Positions 7,320 through 59,980 of a stretch of DNA of 64,000 nucleotides are shown piece by piece. Position 1 is the first letter of the stretch. Every line of letters starts with the position of its first letter. Position numbers and translations under genes: made by a program. The stretch lies in the NCBI GenBank assembly GCA_037903475.1, contig JBAJFG010000030.1:248001-312000 (forward strand). Direction: 5' to 3'. Under the pieces are notes generated by a model. The model was not told the DNA's origin and ran no database searches. It saw only the letters and a list, made by a program, of their open reading frames with translations. The stretch comes from Ancylostoma caninum (lineage: Eukaryota; Nematoda; Chromadorea; Rhabditida; Ancylostomatidae).

Positions 7320-8229
7320 GGAAACACAGCAACGCCAGCGGTGCGAAAAAAAACATATGCTCTACGATAGGCCTCTCCTCTCTCCTACTATACTGTGAAG
7401 GTTTGGTCCTGAAAATTCAAATGCGGCCACCCCCAAAAGCTCACTGAACAGAATACACAAACTGATATCTGTATGCTAGTAGGGGAACTTCATTGCTATC
7501 ACACACTTTAGCTGTGTGATGGATTCACCATGACCTGGGCCCCCACCCGCTACGAAACTGGAGAAATGCATGATCGATCTTCATGGCTTTTCCGCAGACA
7601 AATACATGGCTCAACAACTCGGATATCGGTAAAGTCCCTTAATAAAATCCTCTTACAAAAATCATGGAAGTGGAACTAAACTTTCTAGAGCGCAGGCGGT
7701 GGGGAACCAGCACGTGATCGCGTGCTTTCATCATGAGGCTCAATTATAGACATTGCTCGCGAGGATGCGAAGCTGGCGGAGCATGCGGCCGATGTTTCGC
7801 TATAGGTGGATAGACGTAGTGGAAATCGGGTGCACTCAGGATTTCGCGCTGGGACCCAGCGGCAAGCGGTCTCGAGCCCTCCTGGCGAGAGAGTGTTTAC
7901 AACGATTTGACGTTGCATAGCAGCAAAGTACGGAACAGAGTTGCCCCTCTGCAGGAATTTTGTTGTTCACTTCACTTAATTTTGAAACACTGGACGATAA
8001 CCGCTTCGAAAGGACGTGTGCATGCTGTGGAGGCCGTAGTGATAAGACTCACTTGGGATATGCTCTTTGCGCACCCCTCATTGAGGTCCCATAGGGATTA
8101 TGCAGGCTGAGGATCCGTCTGTTTTTAAGAAGGGCAATCAAACATACAGGATGAACAAACAAAGAACGCGTCATCATAAGCATCATTTCCTGAAACCACC
8201 TAATGAATAGTTTTGCTTATTTGCTAACT
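7320..8229. other. no gene seen
   Basis: Contains a small hairpin TCACACAC/GTGTGTGA at 7498 and a GC-rich patch at 7690-7890 with no family match. Confidence 0.5.
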
Positions 8230-9035
8230 AGACAGTGTACCCGGCTTCGCTCGGGTGTTCAATTTCTCCCGGCCATTTAAAGCTGATGCCAAAATTTGTT
8301 GAATCAAAAAATTCTTTCAAAATGTTCATCATTTGGTGATCAGCTCAAGTGACCCTCCTTCACCCTGCCCCCCCTTCCCTCAATAAATGGGGTGAAGTTG
8401 CTTGACTGGTAAATAAATTCTTATACAGTGCTTGCCTCATCCACGTTCAGCGTTTCGGAAAGTCCCAGAAGGCACGTTTACACCGGCCCGTGTGCAAGAA
8501 AGTCGAAAAATCAATATAACAGATAAATCGATGTTTCGGTCAAAACGGTTACCATATCCGTGTTCAGCGCATTGCGACACCCCGGCAGACATGTCTTTAC
8601 CGCTCAGTGGGCAACAATAGCGAAAAATCAATAAATCGATATTTTGCCCAAGATGGTTGCCATCTCCGCGTTCAGCGTATTGAGGTGCCCCAGTAAGACA
8701 TGTCCTCATCGCCTCCTGGGCAAGAATAGCAAAAATTAATAAAATCGATAAATCGATAATTTGGCGCAAAGTGGTTGTCATATTCGTGTTCAGCACATTG
8801 AGGTACCCCAGTAGGCATGTTCTCTCTAGTCCCTGGTCAAGAAGAGCGGAAAGTCAATAAAATCGATATAATCGATAAGCCAATCGATAATCCCAGGTGC
8901 AAACTAGCCTATAACCTCCGCCGTCCCCCGAAGAACCTACATGCAAAATTTGGTCCCGATCGGTTCATCCTCCGCGATTTCTATTCCGAACATTCAAACA
9001 TACAAACAAACAAACACACACACACACAAACTTTC
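8230..9035 (+). repeat. repeat with four ~110-bp tandem units and LINE-like 3' tail
   Basis: Begins near ACCCGGCTTCGCTCGGGT (8240). Four units start at about 8430, 8548, 8654 and 8772, each with a CCGTGTTCAGCGCATTGAGG-like start and a run of AATCAATAAATCGAT near the end. It then reads CATGCAAAATTTGGTCCCGA and ends in ACAAACAAACAAACACACAC, a form common at 3' ends of non-LTR elements. A 119-codon minus-strand ORF (8796-8437) only reflects the in-phase repeats. Confidence 0.55.
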
Positions 9036-18130: not shown

Positions 18131-18170
18131 TGGCCTGACGTTTCGACTCAACGTCGTCTTCAAAGGCCTG
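18131..18170 (-). ncRNA. hammerhead-ribozyme-like motif, copy 1
   Basis: Read on the minus strand: helix I 5' strand GGCCT, core TTGAAGA (C3 changed to T), helix II CGAC-GTTGA-GTCG, GAAA, self-complementary ACGT as a minimal helix III, cleavage-type triplet GTC, and helix I 3' strand AGGCC. Helix I pairs over 5 bp. It lies about 620 bp downstream of the Penelope-like RT on the same strand. Known: Penelope-like elements carry type I hammerheads with very short helix III that work best as dimers. The core C3 to U change and a bulged helix II base may weaken or abolish activity. Confidence 0.45.
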
Positions 18171-18788: not shown

Positions 18789-19885
18789 TTATGTATGTAT
18801 GATGAAAATGTTTTTGTATAAGCAGCGTAAATAAGAGCTTTCAATAAAAAATCGGTCATATCCTAGTGTTGATAAGAGATTTTTTGTTTGTTTCAGTCGA
18901 TTTATGAAATCATCCCTATTACAACAAGTACGCGCTGTTCTTAGAACTTCGGTATATATAGTTGCTTTCTTAATTGCTGTTGAGATGTTTGTAGACGAAT
19001 GTGGGAATCTCTTTATGGGAAAGCCGAAGAAGACAGTTTTATTATACATTCTTGTAATTATTATATTGTTATTTATACTAATGTCTAAATCTAAGTAATT
19101 GCATGCATAATCAGTTATATGTGTGGTTTCCAATGATAATACTCTTCGATATACATCTGTCAATAATTTTGAAATAATATCGTCTGTAGTATTATGTACA
19201 ATGAGAAGATCATCCATGTATCTGTATGGGAAGAAGTAAATATCAGAATATGGGTAATTTTTTGTATAGACGTATTCGTAATATGATAAGGTGAGGTCCG
19301 CTAAAAGTGGACTGACATTGCCACCTTGTGGAACGCCAATATTTTGTTTAAATATAAGAGGACCAAATGAACAAAAACTGTTATTTAGAAGGTAGTCAAC
19401 CAAATAAAGAATATCTACAATAGTATAGTATCTACCCTTGCATCTGTCATTATTCTCAGAACAAAATGCTTTTTTCTTTTTATGTCCATAACAAACTATG
19501 TATTGTTTGTTAGCGTTACCAAAGCAGATTTTAAGGATTTCTCTAATATTTGCAAGAATAGTTTTATGAGGAAGATTTGTGAACATGTTAGTAAAATCAG
19601 CTGAAAATAGCTCCATATTATTCGCGTTATGTCGTCTTAGATGTTCGCTAATGTTTATATTATTTATCGACCAATATCCGTGAAAAGAATTATTTCGGAA
19701 TGTAATAGATTGAACATAATTTTTAAAATGGTTCTTGATAAAAGTGAAGATGTTTGTAAGTTCTAGCGATAGCGGTTTAATGGTACTGTTGAAAGCTCCA
19801 GTAACTCTATTTTATCAAGACCTCTTTTAATCAAGTCTACGTTTGCATCCGTTTGCTTAATGTCACGTAATAATTAATAATGATA
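18789..19885 (-). pseudogene. Penelope-like reverse transcriptase, mostly open, one frameshift
   Basis: The first Met (19616) gives 275 codons, but the same frame is open from 19811 to the stop at 18789 (about 340 codons). A further 24 codons continue in another frame to about 19885, implying one frameshift. RT motifs in order: FSADFTNMFTNLPH (motif A Asp), IGVPQGGNVSPLLADL (motif B), PYRYMDDLLIV (motif C, Tyr-Met-Asp-Asp), then NYLDLDISI, RFPHSSTNIS and the Arg/Cys-rich EVLRTARTCC. This resembles RTs of Penelope-like elements more than LINE or LTR RTs. No GIY-YIG endonuclease is seen downstream. The region is notably AT-rich compared with its flanks. The copy looks young: all three catalytic Asp are intact. 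Two plus-strand relics of the same RT family lie at 25.6 and 45.4 kb. The class assignment is inference. Confidence 0.75.
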
Positions 19886-23977: not shown

Positions 23978-24330
23978 TTAAAGGCGCCGTCCCACATCGG
24001 AATCTTTCTTGAGATTTCCACATTGGAAGAATCTCCAGAAGCTGCTGAACGCAATGATATGCGTGATTCCGAACGAAATTGCCGGAAAACTCACATTCGA
24101 GCCCCGATTCTTGGGGAGCTTATGGGCGGAAGTGGCCAGCAATGGTGTGACGCAAAAAATCGTCGTTCCACGGCTCCGCTTACGAACTCTCCGAGAGTTG
24201 GCGTTCAAAGACGGGTTTTTTGGCATTTTTGTAGAGAGCCACGTATGTATACCGTTGCGGTCAAAAGCTTTCGGAGATTCTTTTCATGCGGAATTCTCGA
24301 AGACAATCTTGAAGTGGGCGGTACCTTCAA
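23978..24330. mobile_element. 353-bp foldback element, TTAAAGG family
   Basis: Starts TTAAAGGCGCCGTCCCACAT and ends GGTACCTTCAA. Arms of roughly 150 bp pair (AGAATCTCC, CGCAATGATAT/AACGGTATAC, GGCGGA/CGGAGCC). The sequence is clearly related to the element at 55983, especially the first 20 bp and the GAATCTCC block. Long ORFs here are palindrome by-products. Confidence 0.6.
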
Positions 24331-32200: not shown

Positions 32201-34006
32201 TTTTGTAGACACATTCATACCATGCTGTCAATGGAATTTTTACTCTCTCGCTCTCTCTCCCGCTCTCTCTCTTTCTCTCTCTTTCTCCCTTTCTCTTTTT
32301 TCTCTCTCTTCTAAGCTTTCCAAAAAAGTTCTTGAATTAAATAATGTTGTTGTACTGATTTCATAATATTAGTATTCTATTCTACTAGCTAAATATTCAA
32401 ATAAACACATATGATATTAAACCACTATATCATGTTCTTTTATTTTCTATACTGAGAAGTTTGTTGGGATAATGGACTCAATTACTGGCCTGACCGTCGC
32501 AGAAGGGGCTCATTGGAGAGCCGCGAGGTAGTCATTTGTTGAGACTGTCTTCATTTCACTAGTACCATAAACGCTCTAAACCTGCTTTGCTCCTCAACTT
32601 AACACTTGAATACATAACTGCTACTATAAGACTGAGTCCTTCGCCTAGAAAAATCCACCAATCCGACGCACTATCTTCGGAAGTGCTCCATCTAAAAAAT
32701 ACACTATTTATCAGCAGGTACTTTTGCACTATTCTTCACGAACATCGCAAGTCAAAAAAAGAGAACAGTGCCGTTAAACGTATATAGAAGCAGATTCAAA
32801 AACGTCAGAAAGGAAACTGTTCGTCATGTATGTAATCAGACATCTGAATTTTCAGTCTCTCTTTTTGTACCTTAAATTGTAGAGCCTCAGAAGTGCAAAG
32901 TACCAATAGTCAGAATTTTCCGACTATACTACGACTCCAGTGTTTCAACGAAACGTAGACGACAATCCAGAACAACACACTATTGTTAAAGAAAAGGGAG
33001 GAATGGGAAAGGATTAGCTCACAAAGATCTCAGAGTACAGGACGCAGTCATTGCCAGACTACAAAGGCCTTGTGCACGTACATAACTATTGTCTGGGCTT
33101 CTCACAGGTATTATCTCTTCATAGGTGTTCAAACAAAGACTTCCTCCACTACTATGTTCCTGCTCAAAGATTAGACATGTCTCGAGGCTGAAAGGTGATT
33201 GGAGGGCTTACCTACGAGGGGCTACGGTTAATGTGCTAGGCTTTGAGTACGGTCACAGGTGGCAGGGGTCGCTAAGGACTACAAAAGTAATGTGTAAATG
33301 TTGTAGGTGGAAATAGTCACGCATTCGCCGTTCTTTCCACCTGGTTTTGAGCTACATACGAAGTAGAAGAAATAAAGGAATTGTAACTTGTAAAAAATTG
33401 ATTTCCTCAGAAAAGCAAATTGAACATGAAGTTGTTTCGACCTTTCCATTCATTAACACCCCCCCCCCAGAAAAAAAAACTAATTTTTTATACGCGAGTA
33501 GTGATCAAAAATTGACAAGTTTCAGGTTAGCCCACTGAGGAGATGTAATTATTTTAAATATTATATTTCAATTTATGCTAATATACTTGAATCAACATTT
33601 TACATTTTATTTTACAACTGAAATCTATTCAGTCGCAGTAAACCTTGAATTGATCAACATAATTTCGTCAACAGACTCATCCCAACTTTCACAGAATACA
33701 AAAGAGATGCTAAAAACAAATCCAGACATGTACAGCATACCAACAAGTGTTTACTTGCGTTTACTAATTACCACCACATACTTAGCTGTAGGTAAGCAAC
33801 TGCACGTGATGAATAGGATATGAGCCAGAATTACGCTACCATCGAGATGTTAGAAATTTTTGAGCACGGAGTGGAAAAAGACGAAAATATCGGCATTGTG
33901 TATTAGTTCCCAAGTCGTCTTTAGATCTCAGTATGGTACTTCAGTGTAGTTTATAAACTTGTTACCTGAACATAAGGCTGTCAACTTGCTAGAAACTATG
34001 CTTTCA
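29275..34006. other. no gene seen
   Basis: Only chance-length ORFs; a 10-G run at 31367, CT tract at 32.25 kb and a 10-C run at 33459. Confidence 0.45.
32248..32312 (+). repeat. CT-rich low-complexity tract
   Basis: CTCTCTCTCCCGCTCTCTCT followed by TTTC/CTCT mixtures. Confidence 0.9.
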
Positions 34007-34046
34007 AGCCCTGACAAAGGCGGTCCTACCGAAATGTTGGCCAATA
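34007..34046 (+). ncRNA. hammerhead-ribozyme-like motif, copy 2 (decayed)
   Basis: GCC helix I strand, CTGACAA (the G of CTGANGA is A), helix II GGCGG...CTACC, GAAA, ATGT where other copies have ACGT (CpG decay), T, then GGCC helix I partner. It has the same order as the other copies and shares the downstream GGCCAATAAAC with copy 4 (GGCCAGTAAAA). Likely inactive. Confidence 0.35.
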
Positions 34047-34226
34047 AACTACACCGACAACTCCATATTCGGCTGACTAGATCATGAGTTATACTGGAGT
34101 ATCAACAATCCTTATGAATCGATAGATCAGAAAATGATTGTTCGATCTACGCTCTGTTCCTGATCTTTGCGAAAAAGGAGAAAAGCGCATTGACTATCTT
34201 TCCTTTTTCCTCTCTTTGTTTTCCTT

Positions 34227-34290
34227 TTTTAGAGCATGTTATGCACATGCAACGCATTGACGGGTTGCATGTGCATAACCTGCTCTAAAA
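34227..34290. repeat. 64-bp near-perfect hairpin
   Basis: 27-bp arms with a single mismatch: TTTTAGAGCATGTTATGCAC... pairs with its complement ending TGCTCTAAAA; the loop is about 10 bases. Too long and too exact for chance. It could be a tiny MITE or the two ends of a deleted element. Confidence 0.8.
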
Positions 34291-34764
34291 TGGAACAGTT
34301 CCGAAGGCAAGTCCCTTCTGAGAAATTCACGGTGAAACTGAATGTATTTGCATGTTAGCGTATTCTGTCTAGAAAATTTTCGACAATCTGTAGGAAATTC
34401 TCTTCTTAGGCCTTTTTATTTATGATTATGCACACCACATACAACTCCGCCGTATGTTTGCTGTTTTTCAACTTTAGCTTCCGTACGAAAGGCAGAAAGC
34501 TGTTTCAATGCTTTCTTGGAGAAACTTGGTATCGGCTCGCCTGACACGACGATTCGCGGATGACGCTAGATGGATGTATTTAATGCAGAAGCTACAAGGA
34601 TCTCCGAACAGTAAAAGCCTGCAAAGGTGGCTTGACGACAAAATGAAGAAAACTCAAGCATATATTATCAAAGCTGAAGTAACGTGTGTGTGGAGATGGT
34701 ATGAAAACGCTGGACTCTTCGCAAATTCAATACGATATCAACCGTACCGTTGCGATGTAGAGAG

Positions 34765-37470: not shown

Positions 37471-38772
37471 GTTGGGTCAAGTTCCTATTATGAACTTGAT
37501 AAAACTATGAACATGAACTGTTTCAAAGGATGCGTTGATCTTCTCAATCCATCTTTTTAAATCTTTTCAGTTCATCGCACGATTTCAGCAGTAGGAACTT
37601 AGCCCTAAACTACCATATATAAAAACGTCACAATTTCGCAAAAGAAAACGTGGGAGGATATGATAGGAAATGGATAGGAACCATACGCGACTCAAAATCG
37701 ATTCCACTAACCAGTGACTTCGAAGTTTCCCCACGCTGTTGCAGATGCGAAAAGGCGTCAATTTTGAATTTAACCACTGTTTACCGTAGAAATGGCTTGA
37801 GCAAACAGACCTACGAAATGGCTAATGAGTCTGTACATTCGTCACAGTTTGAGACAGTTCGAGACTGCGATACGTATGCGCAGGTAATTTGGCACGCTCT
37901 GTGATACCAATCAGCTTAGTTTTTTGGAATCAGAAGCGCGAATACCACAGAATACTGGAAATATCTGCAAGTGTAATAGTAATCGAAGTGTAGTATCCCA
38001 CTTATCCCTGATGCGCACTGCATGCGCAGAAAGCGGACAACTTCTGGCACATTGTTTGCCTTATATGTCGACGACATTTTGGTTGCAGTGATACTATTGA
38101 AAGACGAAGCCCAACCCAAGAATCTTTCCAAATTTCGCGAGAGGAAGAGAAGGTTCAGGATCTGCTGATCACAATAATACATGCAGTTTCGCTGAAACTT
38201 CCAGAAAATCCGACCTTAAATCCTCTTTTGGGGAGATTCTGGGCGGAACCAAAGTGGGAGCTCAGATTTCCGCACAATGTACTCTTGGCTGGCTACACCC
38301 CAAAAGCTTGGACTGCATCGAAGGCAGCAGTGAAGCAGTCATGGAATTTGGCTCATTTAGGAGTACTAGTGCTGATAGATCTGTATCTCGTCTGGGGAGC
38401 TAATGAGCTGCTTAGGGTCGTGTCCTAAGGCAATAGGAGAACGAAGAAACAAGGAAGAAGATTACTTTAGATGTAGCTAGAAGGGCATTTCTCTTAGGTG
38501 TAATGAACCTATTCCCATCGAGGAAAATTGTCTGCACTGATGTGAATATGCTAACAAGATTCTAAATTTGTCTGCTCCTACTTGTGGAAATTTGCAGAGG
38601 AAGGGATTAAAAACTTCCTTCTTACAAGGGAAGTGCACGAACTTAAGCTGCGAATTCGAGATGACACCTATGTATATGGTTCGAGATCCTGTCCAAAATG
38701 ATGTTCAATTATGTACTTCAAGTTTTGGTAAGATGGTGCTATCCCGGAGTCTCATTTAGTATAAGTTTCTTA
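37471..38772. other. no gene assigned; RT-like YVDD peptide
   Basis: A plus-strand frame at about 38045-38160 reads GTLFALYVDDILVAVILLKD, an RT motif C look-alike with no motifs A or B recognised upstream. Confidence 0.25.
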
Positions 38773-38948
38773 GTGTCGTGAATATTTAGACTCCTATTTC
38801 AATCTTTTATTGGCTAGCTCATTCGTCTACTGGCTTGCTTACTGTGCTGTGTGTCATCTTGTTTGCCTAGCCTGGCCTGACGAAGGTGTTAATCACCGAA
38901 AGCTAGCCAGTAAAGGATTGAAACAGGAGTCTACAATATTCACGACAC
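38773..38948 (+). repeat. 176-bp inverted repeat enclosing a hammerhead-like motif
   Basis: Outer arms of about 46 bp: GTGTCGTGAATATTTAGACT at 38773 pairs with the complement of the end at 38948, with only a few mismatches. Inside the right half lies CTGGC-CTGACGA-A-GGTG-TTAAT-CACC-GAAA-GCT-A-GCCAG (38872-38910): helix I is 5 bp, the core is intact, helix II is 4 bp plus a bulged A, AGCT is a self-complementary helix III, and GCTA provides an N-U-H cleavage triplet. This is the best-preserved copy in the window. No coding sequence is nearby. Confidence 0.5.
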
Positions 38949-41577
38949 GAAGATAGTTCAAACCTGCTAAATGGTCAATAAAAGCTCAGAAAAAGCGCGA
39001 AACGGACGCACACTGCAAGATTTGATCCTGCGAGCATGCTTACGACGAGCGAGAAATTACCTATGCGCCATTAACCATTTGCCAGTGCCATCTCGTGCTC
39101 CTGCACTCGTAGAGCTCCTGATAAAACCACGCGTAACTCCTTACAGAGACAAAACTCAGGAACGATGAAAACAGATTTGAAACCAGCTTCGCGAGCTGCA
39201 CAAGGCAGTGTACACCAAGCCACAAATCCATAGTATCCAATGTGTCCTCCGCTTGCTCCATGTGGTATTCTGAGCTCCTGTAGACCATTTAGCAGATTTT
39301 AAGTACAGGTCGTAACATTACGTTGGACACATATAGGTCACCTTATGGATTAGCAGCTTTTCTCAGTGCACTTCTCTTGCACCATTTTTAGCCCTGTTAT
39401 CAACCTGAGGTCGCAAGAAGCAAACCTATCATGATCCCTCAAGGCAAACAGCAAGCAAATCAAAATTTGTACCACAAATAAGAGGATGCTTTTCACGTGA
39501 AGGGGTATGATTCTTCTAGTCAAAGCTATGTAGTGTTTGGTGCTAAAAGAGGCAACAATCACGACATTCTATGAAGAGTGGCGCTTTAATCGGTGAAATC
39601 TTTGAATTTCTGCAGAACATTATTGTAGGATACAGAGAATATATGGGAAAGCATGAATTCTGCTCTGTTAGGGTAGAAAATGAGGGCAGCATTGCTGAGA
39701 ATAGGCTGGTAGCAATTATTACGAAACGATTACGTGAAAAACAGCAACAGTGTGCGAATGAAATGACGCTCTAGAATTTGCAGTGCTTTTTACGAAAGTT
39801 CTGCCATCGTTCGTGTGAATTTGTGAGGTACGTAGCTAAAAATGAAGTTGACTGCCCATTTAAAGCCGATGTGCTCTGAACATTGATCTTTTTTAAGTTA
39901 GTAACCTGTAAGCGTGGTAATAGCTACAAGTGAGATACAGGGTTGAGGCACACACTCGAGACAGGTATTGAAGGTGTGATAAATGAGATAATTGAGATAA
40001 AATACAACAAATTACACAAAAAAAATACAAAAATATGCGTGTGTCCATTGGCGGTGGTGCGGCTCAACACATTTTTGGAGAAACAGGTCACTGCTAAAGT
40101 GGAAGACGTGGACCAATTTGGAGAGGAATATAGGGGGCTAGTTCTCCATGCTTAGATAGTCCAATTGTTGCTGAAAGCTTGATATTTATCTCCTGATCAG
40201 AAGGCAACCGTGCAGAAACTATATACGAACCCCCTCATTCTATTTGAAAAAAAAAACCCCACAGAGTGACACAGTCAATTGACAAAGAAAGATTAAATGA
40301 CAATCAGTTCAAACTCTTTAGTAATGTGGTAAGTTATTGATGAATTGTATGTATGAATTGTATGTATGAATTCTTGATGTTTTGACTTCTGCTTGATAAA
40401 ATTTCCTTATCAAACAACTTCAAACTCTCAATTTTTTTTCTGACGTTTGAGGGACAATTATCATGGTATTAAAGTGTTATACACTTTTCTTGTCATTTAT
40501 TGTTCAAGAACGGCTTTTCAAAGTCACAAAAGTCTCGAAAAATGAGGGTTTAGTGAGTTGTTATTCACGTATGCTATCGGTTACCAGTTTACAGAACGAA
40601 GTGAGGGACAAAGTAACGTCAAAGACATTCAGGAATCGTTTCCGCTTATTCCATTTATTCGTGGAATGAACGGGGAATGTTTTGAATGGGGTCGGCCAAT
40701 CGAGTCCATAGGGGGGGGAGGGGTCACAAGCGCTAGTAGCCCTTGTGTGGGCAGAGACGAAACGTAAATGGTTACTTCACACAGTTGATAATCTGTGAGT
40801 TATTTATGAAAAGGAGAAAAATGTAACAACATATTATGTTTTTCCTCCCCAGCAAGACATACTGCGGTGTCGTCTGGACCAAAAAAAAAACCCAACTTCC
40901 GAGCAGGCTTTGATAAGAACATTAGTGACGTACTGGCAATTAGAAATTTATCTGCCATATTTCCTCGTTTTAGTGAATGGCAGCACCCATGGAAATTTCT
41001 GCCTCTAAGATCTTGATCCGGTCGTGATCCAATCGATTGATGGGTCGAGTTTGCAAAAAAACACCAGAGAACTTTCCCTTTCGCAAGCAATAACAGGTGT
41101 TACCTAGATCAGCAGGAGCAGTAAGCAGTAAGTTTCACGAGTTTCCATTGCTAGCAGTGAGCTCTAGAATCTTCATTGGAGCGCGAAAAACAGCGATTGC
41201 CAGCTGATTGGGCCATGATTTCAAGTAGCGGTCTTTTGTGATAGCCTTTCCCCCGCTCTCTTCGACCAGGATTGAATTGTTATGGTTCCATTATTTATTT
41301 CGTGTTTGCTCATTATTCAATTCCATTCTCCCTATAATTTTATTTTTCACACAAACATCCGCTCCCTCAAATTTCAAGTGCATTTACGTCATTTTTCTAA
41401 ATTCATCATTAGGTTTGGAATTCTCCTGCGCTATGCCCTATAAAATGAGCACTATATCCCCACCTTTTCTGCTTCAAGAAAGCTGTCTTCCTTTTGAATC
41501 ATCCAACTGTGTCGAGAAAAGGTGACAATGTTGGCAGCGTTACCATCTCTTTTCGTTCGACCTGATTCGTGTAACTA
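38949..41577. other. no gene seen
   Basis: Short ORFs without motifs; GAATTGTATGTAT duplicated at 40345-40370; an 8-G run at 40711. Confidence 0.45.
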
Positions 41578-46858: not shown

Positions 46859-48101
46859 TTAAAGGCAGTGTCTCAGCTCAGGTTCGATTTCGAGCATTGG
46901 GTATGAGAAGAATCTCGGGGATGTGATGATTACAAAGGTGTAGGAATCTCGGCTCAAAATTGCAAAAAAAAACCCCTTCTTTAACGGTTTCTTTTTGGAG
47001 CAAACTTCCAGCCGCCGCATCGAAAGAAGGCGCCACTCCATGCCACTCCACGCGGCTCCTTGCATTCGACCTCTCGTGCATGCAGCTGTGTAACATCCTC
47101 GCATTCTCGTCGACTTCGTCCAAGCGTCCTACCGTGCTAGCATTCTCGACCATACCCTTAGCGCTTGTAAAACATTGTACGGTACTATTCTAGTTCAGCG
47201 GCCACACTATCGACACAATCAAAGCCATGGATTTCTCCCAAAACTTGCATATTGGGGTAATTCGATGTGCTGATCACGAATATCACATTAATTTCGCATG
47301 ATAGTACCGATTTTATTGATTGTGTCGATTTTTTGCAAGTTCAACTAATACCTCTAATCGCTCTAAAAAGTGCATGTAGAGGTTTTTGATTTGCGATTTA
47401 ATTTCGATTCCGTTGATTTTCTTCAGATTCTTCTCTGTAGGGCGGTGTAGTTTCCGACTTTACTGAAGTTTTCCACATTTGGTCGACATTTTCTTGCGAA
47501 GCCTTCATCATATCTGCCACTAGCACTTTCAAAAACCCCCGTATGCAAGTTTTCAGAGAGATACAAGAGGAGGTCAATGCCTGGGAAAAAATCGATAAAA
47601 TCAATAAAGTCGATCCTATAAAAATACTGTGAATGATAATGGACATGATGTTCGTGGTCAGCACCTCGAATTAGCTCTGTATAAGTTCTCGTAGAAATCC
47701 ATGACTTCGAGTTTTAGTTCGATAGTGGGGCCGCTGAAGTACAATAGCACCGTACAATGTTCTGCAAGCGTCAAGGTTATGGTTGAGAGTACTAGCACGG
47801 TAGGACGCTTGGACCAAGTCGACGAGAATTCGAGGATATTACATAGCTGCATGCACGCGAGGTCGAATGCAAGGAGCCGCGTGGAGTGACATGGAGTGGC
47901 GCCGATCGATAGCGCCGCGTCGCCGTGTGGACGAGCTTTCGATGCGGCGGCTGGAAGTTTGCTCCAAAAAGAAACCGTTAAAGAAAGGGGTTTTTTGCAC
48001 TTTTGAGGCGAGATTCCTACACCTTTGTAATCATCACATCTTCGAGATTCTTCTCATACCCAATGCTCGAAATCGAACCTGAGCTGAGGCAGTGCCTTTA
48101 A
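46859..48101. mobile_element. 1.24-kb foldback element, TTAAAGG...CCTTTAA
   Basis: The left half is the imperfect reverse complement of the right half almost to the centre near 47.48 kb. Paired landmarks: TTAAAGGCAGTG/CACTGCCTTTAA ends, GTTTCTTTTTGGAGCAAACT (46988/47968), GTCCTACCGTGCTAGCA (47126/47796), ATCGAATT next to GTGCTGATCACGAA (47257/47650), and TTTATTGATT..TCGATTTTTT (47313/47590). The ends are compatible with a TTAA target site. ORFs in it are shadows of the palindrome. No transposase. Confidence 0.8.
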
Positions 48102-55982: not shown

Positions 55983-56622
55983 TTAAAGGCAGCGTCCCAC
56001 GTCAAGATCGTTTTTGAGATTTAAACGTTGAAAGGATCTCCAGCAGCTGGTGATGACAACGGTATACGTGATTCCATGCAAGACTGCTGAAAAACCCCAT
56101 TTCCAAGCCCCAATTTTTAAGGAGCCTTTGGGCGAAGCAGGGGGCGGAGCTAAGAAACTTTCCGGATAATTCACTCCAGGAAGCGCATCTCCTGAGGAAC
56201 TTCGCATTCCTCGTGAGAGTTCCTCATCAACTCCCTAACAGAATAAAAAATGTCTTCCATGTATGACCAGCAAAGGAGTTCACGGTTCGGGAACCAAGCA
56301 AATCCGCCTTGGCTCTGTGCGGGATTGCAGGGATTCTACCCAACGTACTCCCTTGCTCGCCGCAAGTGGGGCGCAGTTTCTACTTATTTAAGTAGTTGAT
56401 GGGTAACTCTCACGAGGAATATAATTTTTCTCAAGAGTAAATTATTCGGAAAGTTTCTTAGCTCTGCCCCCGGCTCCGCCAAAAGGCTCCTTAAAAATGG
56501 GGCTCGGAAATGGGGTTTTCCGCAGTTTTGCATGGAATCACGTATAGCATTGCACCAGCTCCTGAACATTCTTTTAACGTGGAAATCTCAAAAACGATCT
56601 TGAGGTGGGACGCTGCCTTTAT
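55983..56622. mobile_element. 640-bp foldback element, TTAAAGG family
   Basis: Arms of about 230-260 bp (55983-56241 and 56390-56622) pair through TTAAAGGCAGCGTCCCAC, GATTCCATGCAAGACTGC, AAGGAGCC and CCTCGTGAGAGTT; about 150 bp in the middle is unpaired. Related to 23978-24330. It ends 14 bp before the mariner element. Confidence 0.75.
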
Positions 56623-59940: not shown

Positions 59941-59980
59941 ACTGGCCAACGTTTCGGCGGGAACACCTTCTTCAGAGCCT
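59941..59980 (-). ncRNA. hammerhead-ribozyme-like motif, copy 4
   Basis: Minus strand: GGCT helix I strand, intact core CTGAAGA, bulged A, helix II GGTG-TTCC-CGCC, GAAA, ACGT palindrome, cleavage-type GTT, then GGCC helix I partner. Four helix I pairs, one of them G-T. No RT remnant was recognised next to it. Confidence 0.45.

Follow-up and report, generated by a model that had tools for sequence, protein, structure and literature searches.

A short repeat insertion occupies roughly positions 38722-38953 of the window, the term used here for the whole analysed stretch of 64,000 nucleotides of Ancylostoma caninum DNA. It consists of two pseudo-LTR copies of one element arranged head to head, and in the right-hand copy lies a hammerhead motif of the minimal type I kind, enlarged by one additional base. 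Further hammerhead motifs and a reverse transcriptase (RT) frame lie elsewhere in the window. The features are as follows.

38714-38721, + strand: left flank TACTTCAA, a possible target-site duplication (TSD), 7 of 8 bases identical to the right flank, score 5.
~38722-38953, no strand assigned: whole insertion, two pseudo-LTR copies head to head, from consensus mapping (listed as L001 in the locus tables) and the same layout in sister loci.
38722-38819, - strand: inverted pseudo-LTR copy whose 3' end, the outer one on the left, retains the tail, from consensus mapping of L001.
38820-38953, + strand: direct pseudo-LTR copy, with 5' end ATTCG..., hammerhead and 3' end cut at GAAGA, from consensus mapping.
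38872-38910, + strand: minimal type I hammerhead motif, from the window sequence, helix scan, fold and covariation.
38884, + strand: extra unpaired base between the CTGACGA core and helix II, from the window sequence and motif scan.
38954-38961, + strand: right flank TAGTTCAA, a possible TSD, from flank comparison.
59944-59979, - strand: second-family hammerhead motif with an intact core and the same extra A; no surrounding element identified.
18132-18168, - strand: third-family hammerhead motif with C changed to T in the core; an intact relative lies at L043:2094.
18792-19811, - strand: RT frame of 340 aa (RVT_1, E 2.2e-07).
34006-34042, + strand: decayed hammerhead motif akin to those at 59944 and 38872, from sequence matching.

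The motif at 38872-38910 reads, in order, CTGGC, CTGACGA, A, GGTG-TTAAT-CACC, GAAA, GC, TA and GCCAG, which corresponds to a helix I of 5 bp, the core, the extra A, a helix II of 4 bp with a 5-nt loop, a U-A site and the second strand of helix I. The CUGANGA core, the GAAA, the UH site and helices I and II of a hammerhead are all present, with one base extra, and a single-sequence fold of the 39-mer forms both helices as expected. The first-pass annotation of this DNA had described the motif in the same way, and the window sequence confirms it. The helix I that it gave, CTGGC/GCCAG, is paired throughout in the window copy, but the fifth pair (C-G) is absent from the family consensus, which reads GCCAA and leaves a helix I of 4 bp in the short form of the repeat and usually of 3 bp in the long form. 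By the general hammerhead rule, cleavage is predicted after A38905. The self-complementary AGCU of this motif, like the ACGU of the other families, would permit dimers of the form described for the hammerheads of Penelope-like elements (PLEs). Minimal type I hammerheads are already known from PLE ends; the extra base and the helix I of 4 bp (usually 3 bp in the long form) make this one a predicted weak ribozyme.

The long inverted repeat around the motif is a back-to-front copy of the same PLE end, made at insertion. Its outer arms had been noted as 46 bp long and foreign to the standard motif; they do lie outside it and represent the second, inverted pseudo-LTR copy, but they extend over about 57 bp with mismatches. 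The left copy, whose 5' end precedes the predicted cleavage site by ~5 nt, reaches ~98 bp because it keeps the tail that is missing from the right copy. The duplication flanking the insertion is weak (7 of 8 bases), and its score of 5 falls below the set threshold of 8.

The stretch 38780-38960 has at least 98 matches in the genome (348 Mb, 638 contigs), from which 38 loci were fetched together with 12 longer stretches around long-form copies; small loci nested in larger ones were removed before motifs and units were counted. Two forms of the repeat exist, the short form lacking ~74 nt that are present directly upstream of the core in the long form. Many insertions of the family contain two units head to head, with the RNA 5' ends in the centre and the 3' ends outermost. 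A TSD score of at least 8 was obtained for 10 of 16 such pairs, compared with 5 of 238 mismatched flank pairs used as a control, the 16 including both L015 and L016, which duplicate a single arrangement on C269. With L045 (score 6) added, the count becomes 10 of 17, with duplications of 9-13 bp, and the seven pairs below the threshold include the window copy. Single units reach the same score in 4 of 22 cases (control, 7 of 462). The outer ends of the 58 mapped units comprise 26 that are full, with a tail of ~47 nt, 27 that are cut at GAAGA and 5 of other kinds. One tailed and one cut end occur together in 12 of the 13 pairs in which both outer ends could be classed, a count made without L015/L016 and without L033 (= L048) and L043, each of which has one outer end unclassed; the exception, L013, has two cut ends. 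If ends are assumed to be independent and at even odds, the chance of at least 12 such pairs in 13 is ~0.002. The family displays the pseudo-LTRs, inverted copy and inverted pairs, and tail at one end expected of a PLE, together with a short TSD that is evident at the family level but not in the window copy.

Coding sequence lies upstream of the long form in 6 of the 12 extended loci, with an endonuclease in all six and pieces of RT in four. The distance from coding sequence to repeat is within ~60 nt in five loci and 409 nt in L052. Among the 38 small loci, endonuclease sequence accompanies 6 of the 14 long-form and none of the 24 short-form copies. The RT and GIY-YIG frames upstream of the long form are broken or truncated. 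The frame in L035 has 14 homologous proteins, on which its reading as RT rests; five of them carry a precomputed RVT_1 domain, several are named reverse transcriptase, and the named relatives come from Ancylostoma, Haemonchus and Heligmosomoides. Pfam RVT_1 gave no match on the L035 frames, and Pfam GIY-YIG on the L038 frame fell just below its cut-off (E 0.00035; 21.3 bits versus 22.6). RT and a GIY-YIG endonuclease, the combination typical of EN+ PLEs, are found in one element with an end of the 38872 type, the Pfam evidence by itself being weak. None of the protein matches of the element frames is named Penelope, and the designation Penelope-like, EN+ is drawn from RT, GIY-YIG and the head-to-head layout together. 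Neither a complete coding PLE nor a direct tandem of pseudo-LTRs was seen among the loci examined.

Apart from the family at 38872, hammerhead motifs of two other sequence families are present in the window. The first-pass annotation had counted three further copies without giving coordinates, here taken to be 59944-59979 (-), 18132-18168 (-) and 34006-34042 (+). The first of these has an intact core, but the other two are damaged: the core at 18163 reads TTGAAGA, while the motif at 34006-34042 has the core CTGACAA at 34011 and a broken helix II, and the lowest-energy folds of both are not hammerheads. The RT frame at 18792-19811, with relatives in Cooperia and Ancylostoma, lies ~0.62 kb upstream of the third-family motif and seems to be PLE-like, although apparently of a different group from the 38872 element. 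The relatives of this frame and of the element frames point to a strongylid nematode. Around the intact third-family motif, no RT or endonuclease was found in L043 and L059, including 3 kb of adjoining sequence in L059.

Several other repeats were recorded in the window. A hairpin at 34220-34296 (+), 84% palindromic with itself and weakly matching the MIR1511 model (35.1 bits against a cut-off of 100), is probably a small foldback element. A 638-bp palindrome at 55984-56621 is 76% identical to its own reverse complement, and part of it recurs at 23979-24130. An inverted repeat pair at 46859-47389 and 47529-48101 is 80% identical over 579 columns, and 8427-8878 holds a tandem repeat of ~110 bp in two rows of about two copies each.

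The bare core pattern by itself is no commoner in the window than expected by chance, with 7 matches against a mean of 3.99 and 12 of 100 shuffles reaching 7. A scan of the whole window that also requires the helices returned three matches, namely 38872-38910, 59944-59979 (-) and one of poor quality at 8103, whose helix I has 4 bp and whose helix-II stretch is long; across 20 Markov-resampled windows, 10 matches were obtained in total, or 0-2 per window. Over the 236,036 bases analysed (window plus fetched loci), 28 motifs were obtained, 25 of them from the 38872-38910 family, whose loci were fetched deliberately, and three (window 59975, window 18163 and L043:2094) from the two other families. 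Ten resamplings of equal length produced three motifs altogether, none with one extra base. The extra base, said earlier to occur in every copy, is present in 27 of the 28 motifs but not in L023. That sole exception, at L023:1095 (-), reads as a plain hammerhead. The full motif is kept in 19 of 50 family units (18 of the 19 with the extra base), a proportion in keeping with decay after insertion.

Covariation was assessed in seven motifs, comprising three from the 38872 family, one from the second, two from the third and the decayed motif at 34006. Paired states fill 92.6% of helix cells, and 6 of 8 pairs show double changes; when the partner is slid by 1-3 columns, pairing drops to at most 48.5%. 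None of 500 shuffles reaches either the pairing score or the covariation score, a result that leans in favour of the structure because some of the seven motifs were picked by the scan demanding helices. The 34006 motif and the likeness of the families around the motif come from sequence matching alone, with no demand for helices. Two other measures are unremarkable, the number of pairs changed on both sides being reached by 114 of 500 shuffles and the number of pair types by 66 of 500. Five motifs were also aligned with MAFFT, but the helix-II loop came out misplaced and this alignment was discarded. The three families resemble one another only over the motif and its near flank, ~40-70 bases, and across them the core is kept while the helices compensate, which is the outcome that the earlier proposal of a check for compensatory changes had looked for. 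The accompanying claim of covariation rather than copying holds between the three families, but differences within one family are drift. The assignment to the minimal type I hammerheads of the Penelope kind is upheld by this between-family covariation and by the RT and endonuclease coding upstream in other copies. The stretch 38872-38910 is a genuine hammerhead motif of the minimal kind, well preserved, within the pseudo-LTR of an element read as Penelope-like.

The Rfam hammerhead families gave no match at E values up to 10 in the whole window and two short stretches, which is the outcome that the first-pass annotation had specified as counting against the motif. The Rfam models appear to expect helix III, so that a variant without this helix would escape them. 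No Rfam model is known to have been built for the hammerhead form without helix III, and a covariance-model match is therefore not regarded as defining for the PLE form. The missing match nevertheless bears on the possibility that the hammerhead is a dead relic, that is, that the pseudo-LTR is genuinely of PLE origin but its extra-base, short-helix motif does not cleave. The extra base, the absence of helix III and the observation that the Anolis PLE ribozyme does not cleave when the protein is absent (PMC11167929) agree with such a relic, but the core, helices and extra base have been kept across three families that are alike only over ~40-70 bases, and the relic reading is considered unlikely.

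The 5' ends of the units bear on how the insertions arose. Twenty-six of the 58 units, a count that includes those of L015 and L016, start at consensus positions 43-50 (ATTCG), and in the short form the 5' ends cluster ~85 nt before the predicted cleavage site. In the table of 5' ends, coordinate conversion produced seven spurious entries at position 99, and seven at position 2 mark the edge of the typed long consensus, with the true starts further upstream. A start no more than 5 nt from the predicted cleavage site occurs in only two units, one in L001 (in the window) and one in L009, so ribozyme cleavage is not the usual maker of the template, and a ribozyme-cleavage origin of the insertion 5' ends was rejected. 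L001 and L009 are inserted between different flanks and are lopsided in the same way: in each, one unit begins at this site or no more than 5 nt from it.

These ends also weigh against a retrozyme, a non-coding element that moves via self-cleaved circular RNA derived from tandem hammerheads. The unit is short (~130-180 nt) and carries a type I-like hammerhead, as do animal retrozymes (PMC7229834). Such an origin is nonetheless quite improbable: the 58 mapped units include no adjacent head-to-tail tandem and no tandem units bounded by cleavage sites, the short-form 5' ends cluster ~85 nt from the predicted cleavage site and just the two units above start close to it, the motif has no stable helix III, and the 3' end is shared with a PLE. 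A MITE-like foldback DNA transposon, bounded by long terminal inverted repeats and resembling a hammerhead by chance, is very improbable indeed, since although inverted arms and short TSDs occur in MITEs too, it is largely refuted by unlike ends (one tailed and one cut in 12 of 13 pairs), a TSD length varying from 9 to 13 bp, pair centres that vary in spacer and extent, single units with TSDs (L017, L019 and L024), and the RT and endonuclease coding that precedes the long form.

The insert in the window is very probably a short, non-coding PLE pseudo-LTR insertion with an extra-base minimal type I hammerhead motif. The following course of events is proposed for it. The PLE protein would cut both target strands and prime reverse transcription on each, with one start at the RNA tail and the other internal, at GAAGA; the two cDNAs would then meet with their 5' ends in the middle, yielding a palindrome. 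The hammerhead would process PLE transcripts that are tandem or read through; it would probably act as a dimer formed via the self-complementary AGCU (or ACGU), perhaps assisted by the PLE protein. In short copies it would be carried along without being needed for their formation. For the Penelope insertions of Adineta vaga, self-priming on an antisense template has been preferred (PMC3846280), whereas two-strand priming, at the tail and internally, may explain the one-tail rule more simply. The recurrent 5' end (ATTCG) suggests a defined short RNA, and on this basis the short form may tentatively be viewed as a SINE-like ribozyme element in its own right, a reading held with less than even confidence. 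Its RNA would have a constant 5' end (ATTCG...), would reproduce the 3' end of the PLE and would rely on the PLE protein for mobilisation in trans. If this is true, the head-to-head insertions would show that PLEs usually insert by two-strand priming, with one start at the tail and one internal, and extra-base hammerheads would form a subclass specific to PLEs and possibly assisted by protein.

The mobilisation of PLEs is poorly understood (PMC11167929). Clean head-to-head insertions, mostly with one tailed end, may offer a natural record of reverse-transcription starts on both target strands, and the family allows the role of the hammerhead to be tested against recurrent 5' ends. It also provides a candidate case in which a short hammerhead element and an autonomous-type PLE of one genome have their 3' end in common; for retrozymes, such a link has been proposed (PMC7229834).

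Among known systems, the closest likeness is to GIY-YIG PLEs of the Penelope/Poseidon group such as Penelope of the rotifer Adineta vaga, which also have pseudo-LTRs, an inverted copy and a single tail (PMC3846280). In that element, an inverted pseudo-LTR lies at the 5' side with head-to-head junctions, the tail is optional and restricted to one end, and a TSD of 8-10 bp accompanies several copies (PMC3846280). By comparison, many copies here consist of two pseudo-LTRs only, with no coding part, their TSDs measure 9-13 bp, and no direct tandem pseudo-LTRs were seen. The lizard PLE protein cuts and extends both target strands and starts reverse transcription inside the RNA; the hammerhead of this element requires the protein for cleavage and is dispensable for insertion in vitro (PMC11167929).

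PLE minimal type I hammerheads (Cervera and de la Pena 2014; Lunse, Weinberg and Breaker 2017; both cited in PMC7761336) do not contain helix III, reside in the pseudo-LTR and are thought to cleave as dimers (PMC7761336). The motif described here is of the same type and placement, but has a single additional base following A9. PLE motifs with a comparable extra base are common elsewhere among animals. Passages of PMC10085705 that were searched contain nothing on this base. A precedent is provided by the plus-strand hammerhead of CChMVd, in which an unpaired A follows the conserved A9 (PMC3705267), although this is a viroid RNA and an unrelated element. Animal non-LTR retrozymes likewise are short non-coding elements with a type I-like hammerhead, but they form tandems with canonical hammerheads, whereas the insertions described here are head to head or single (PMC7229834).
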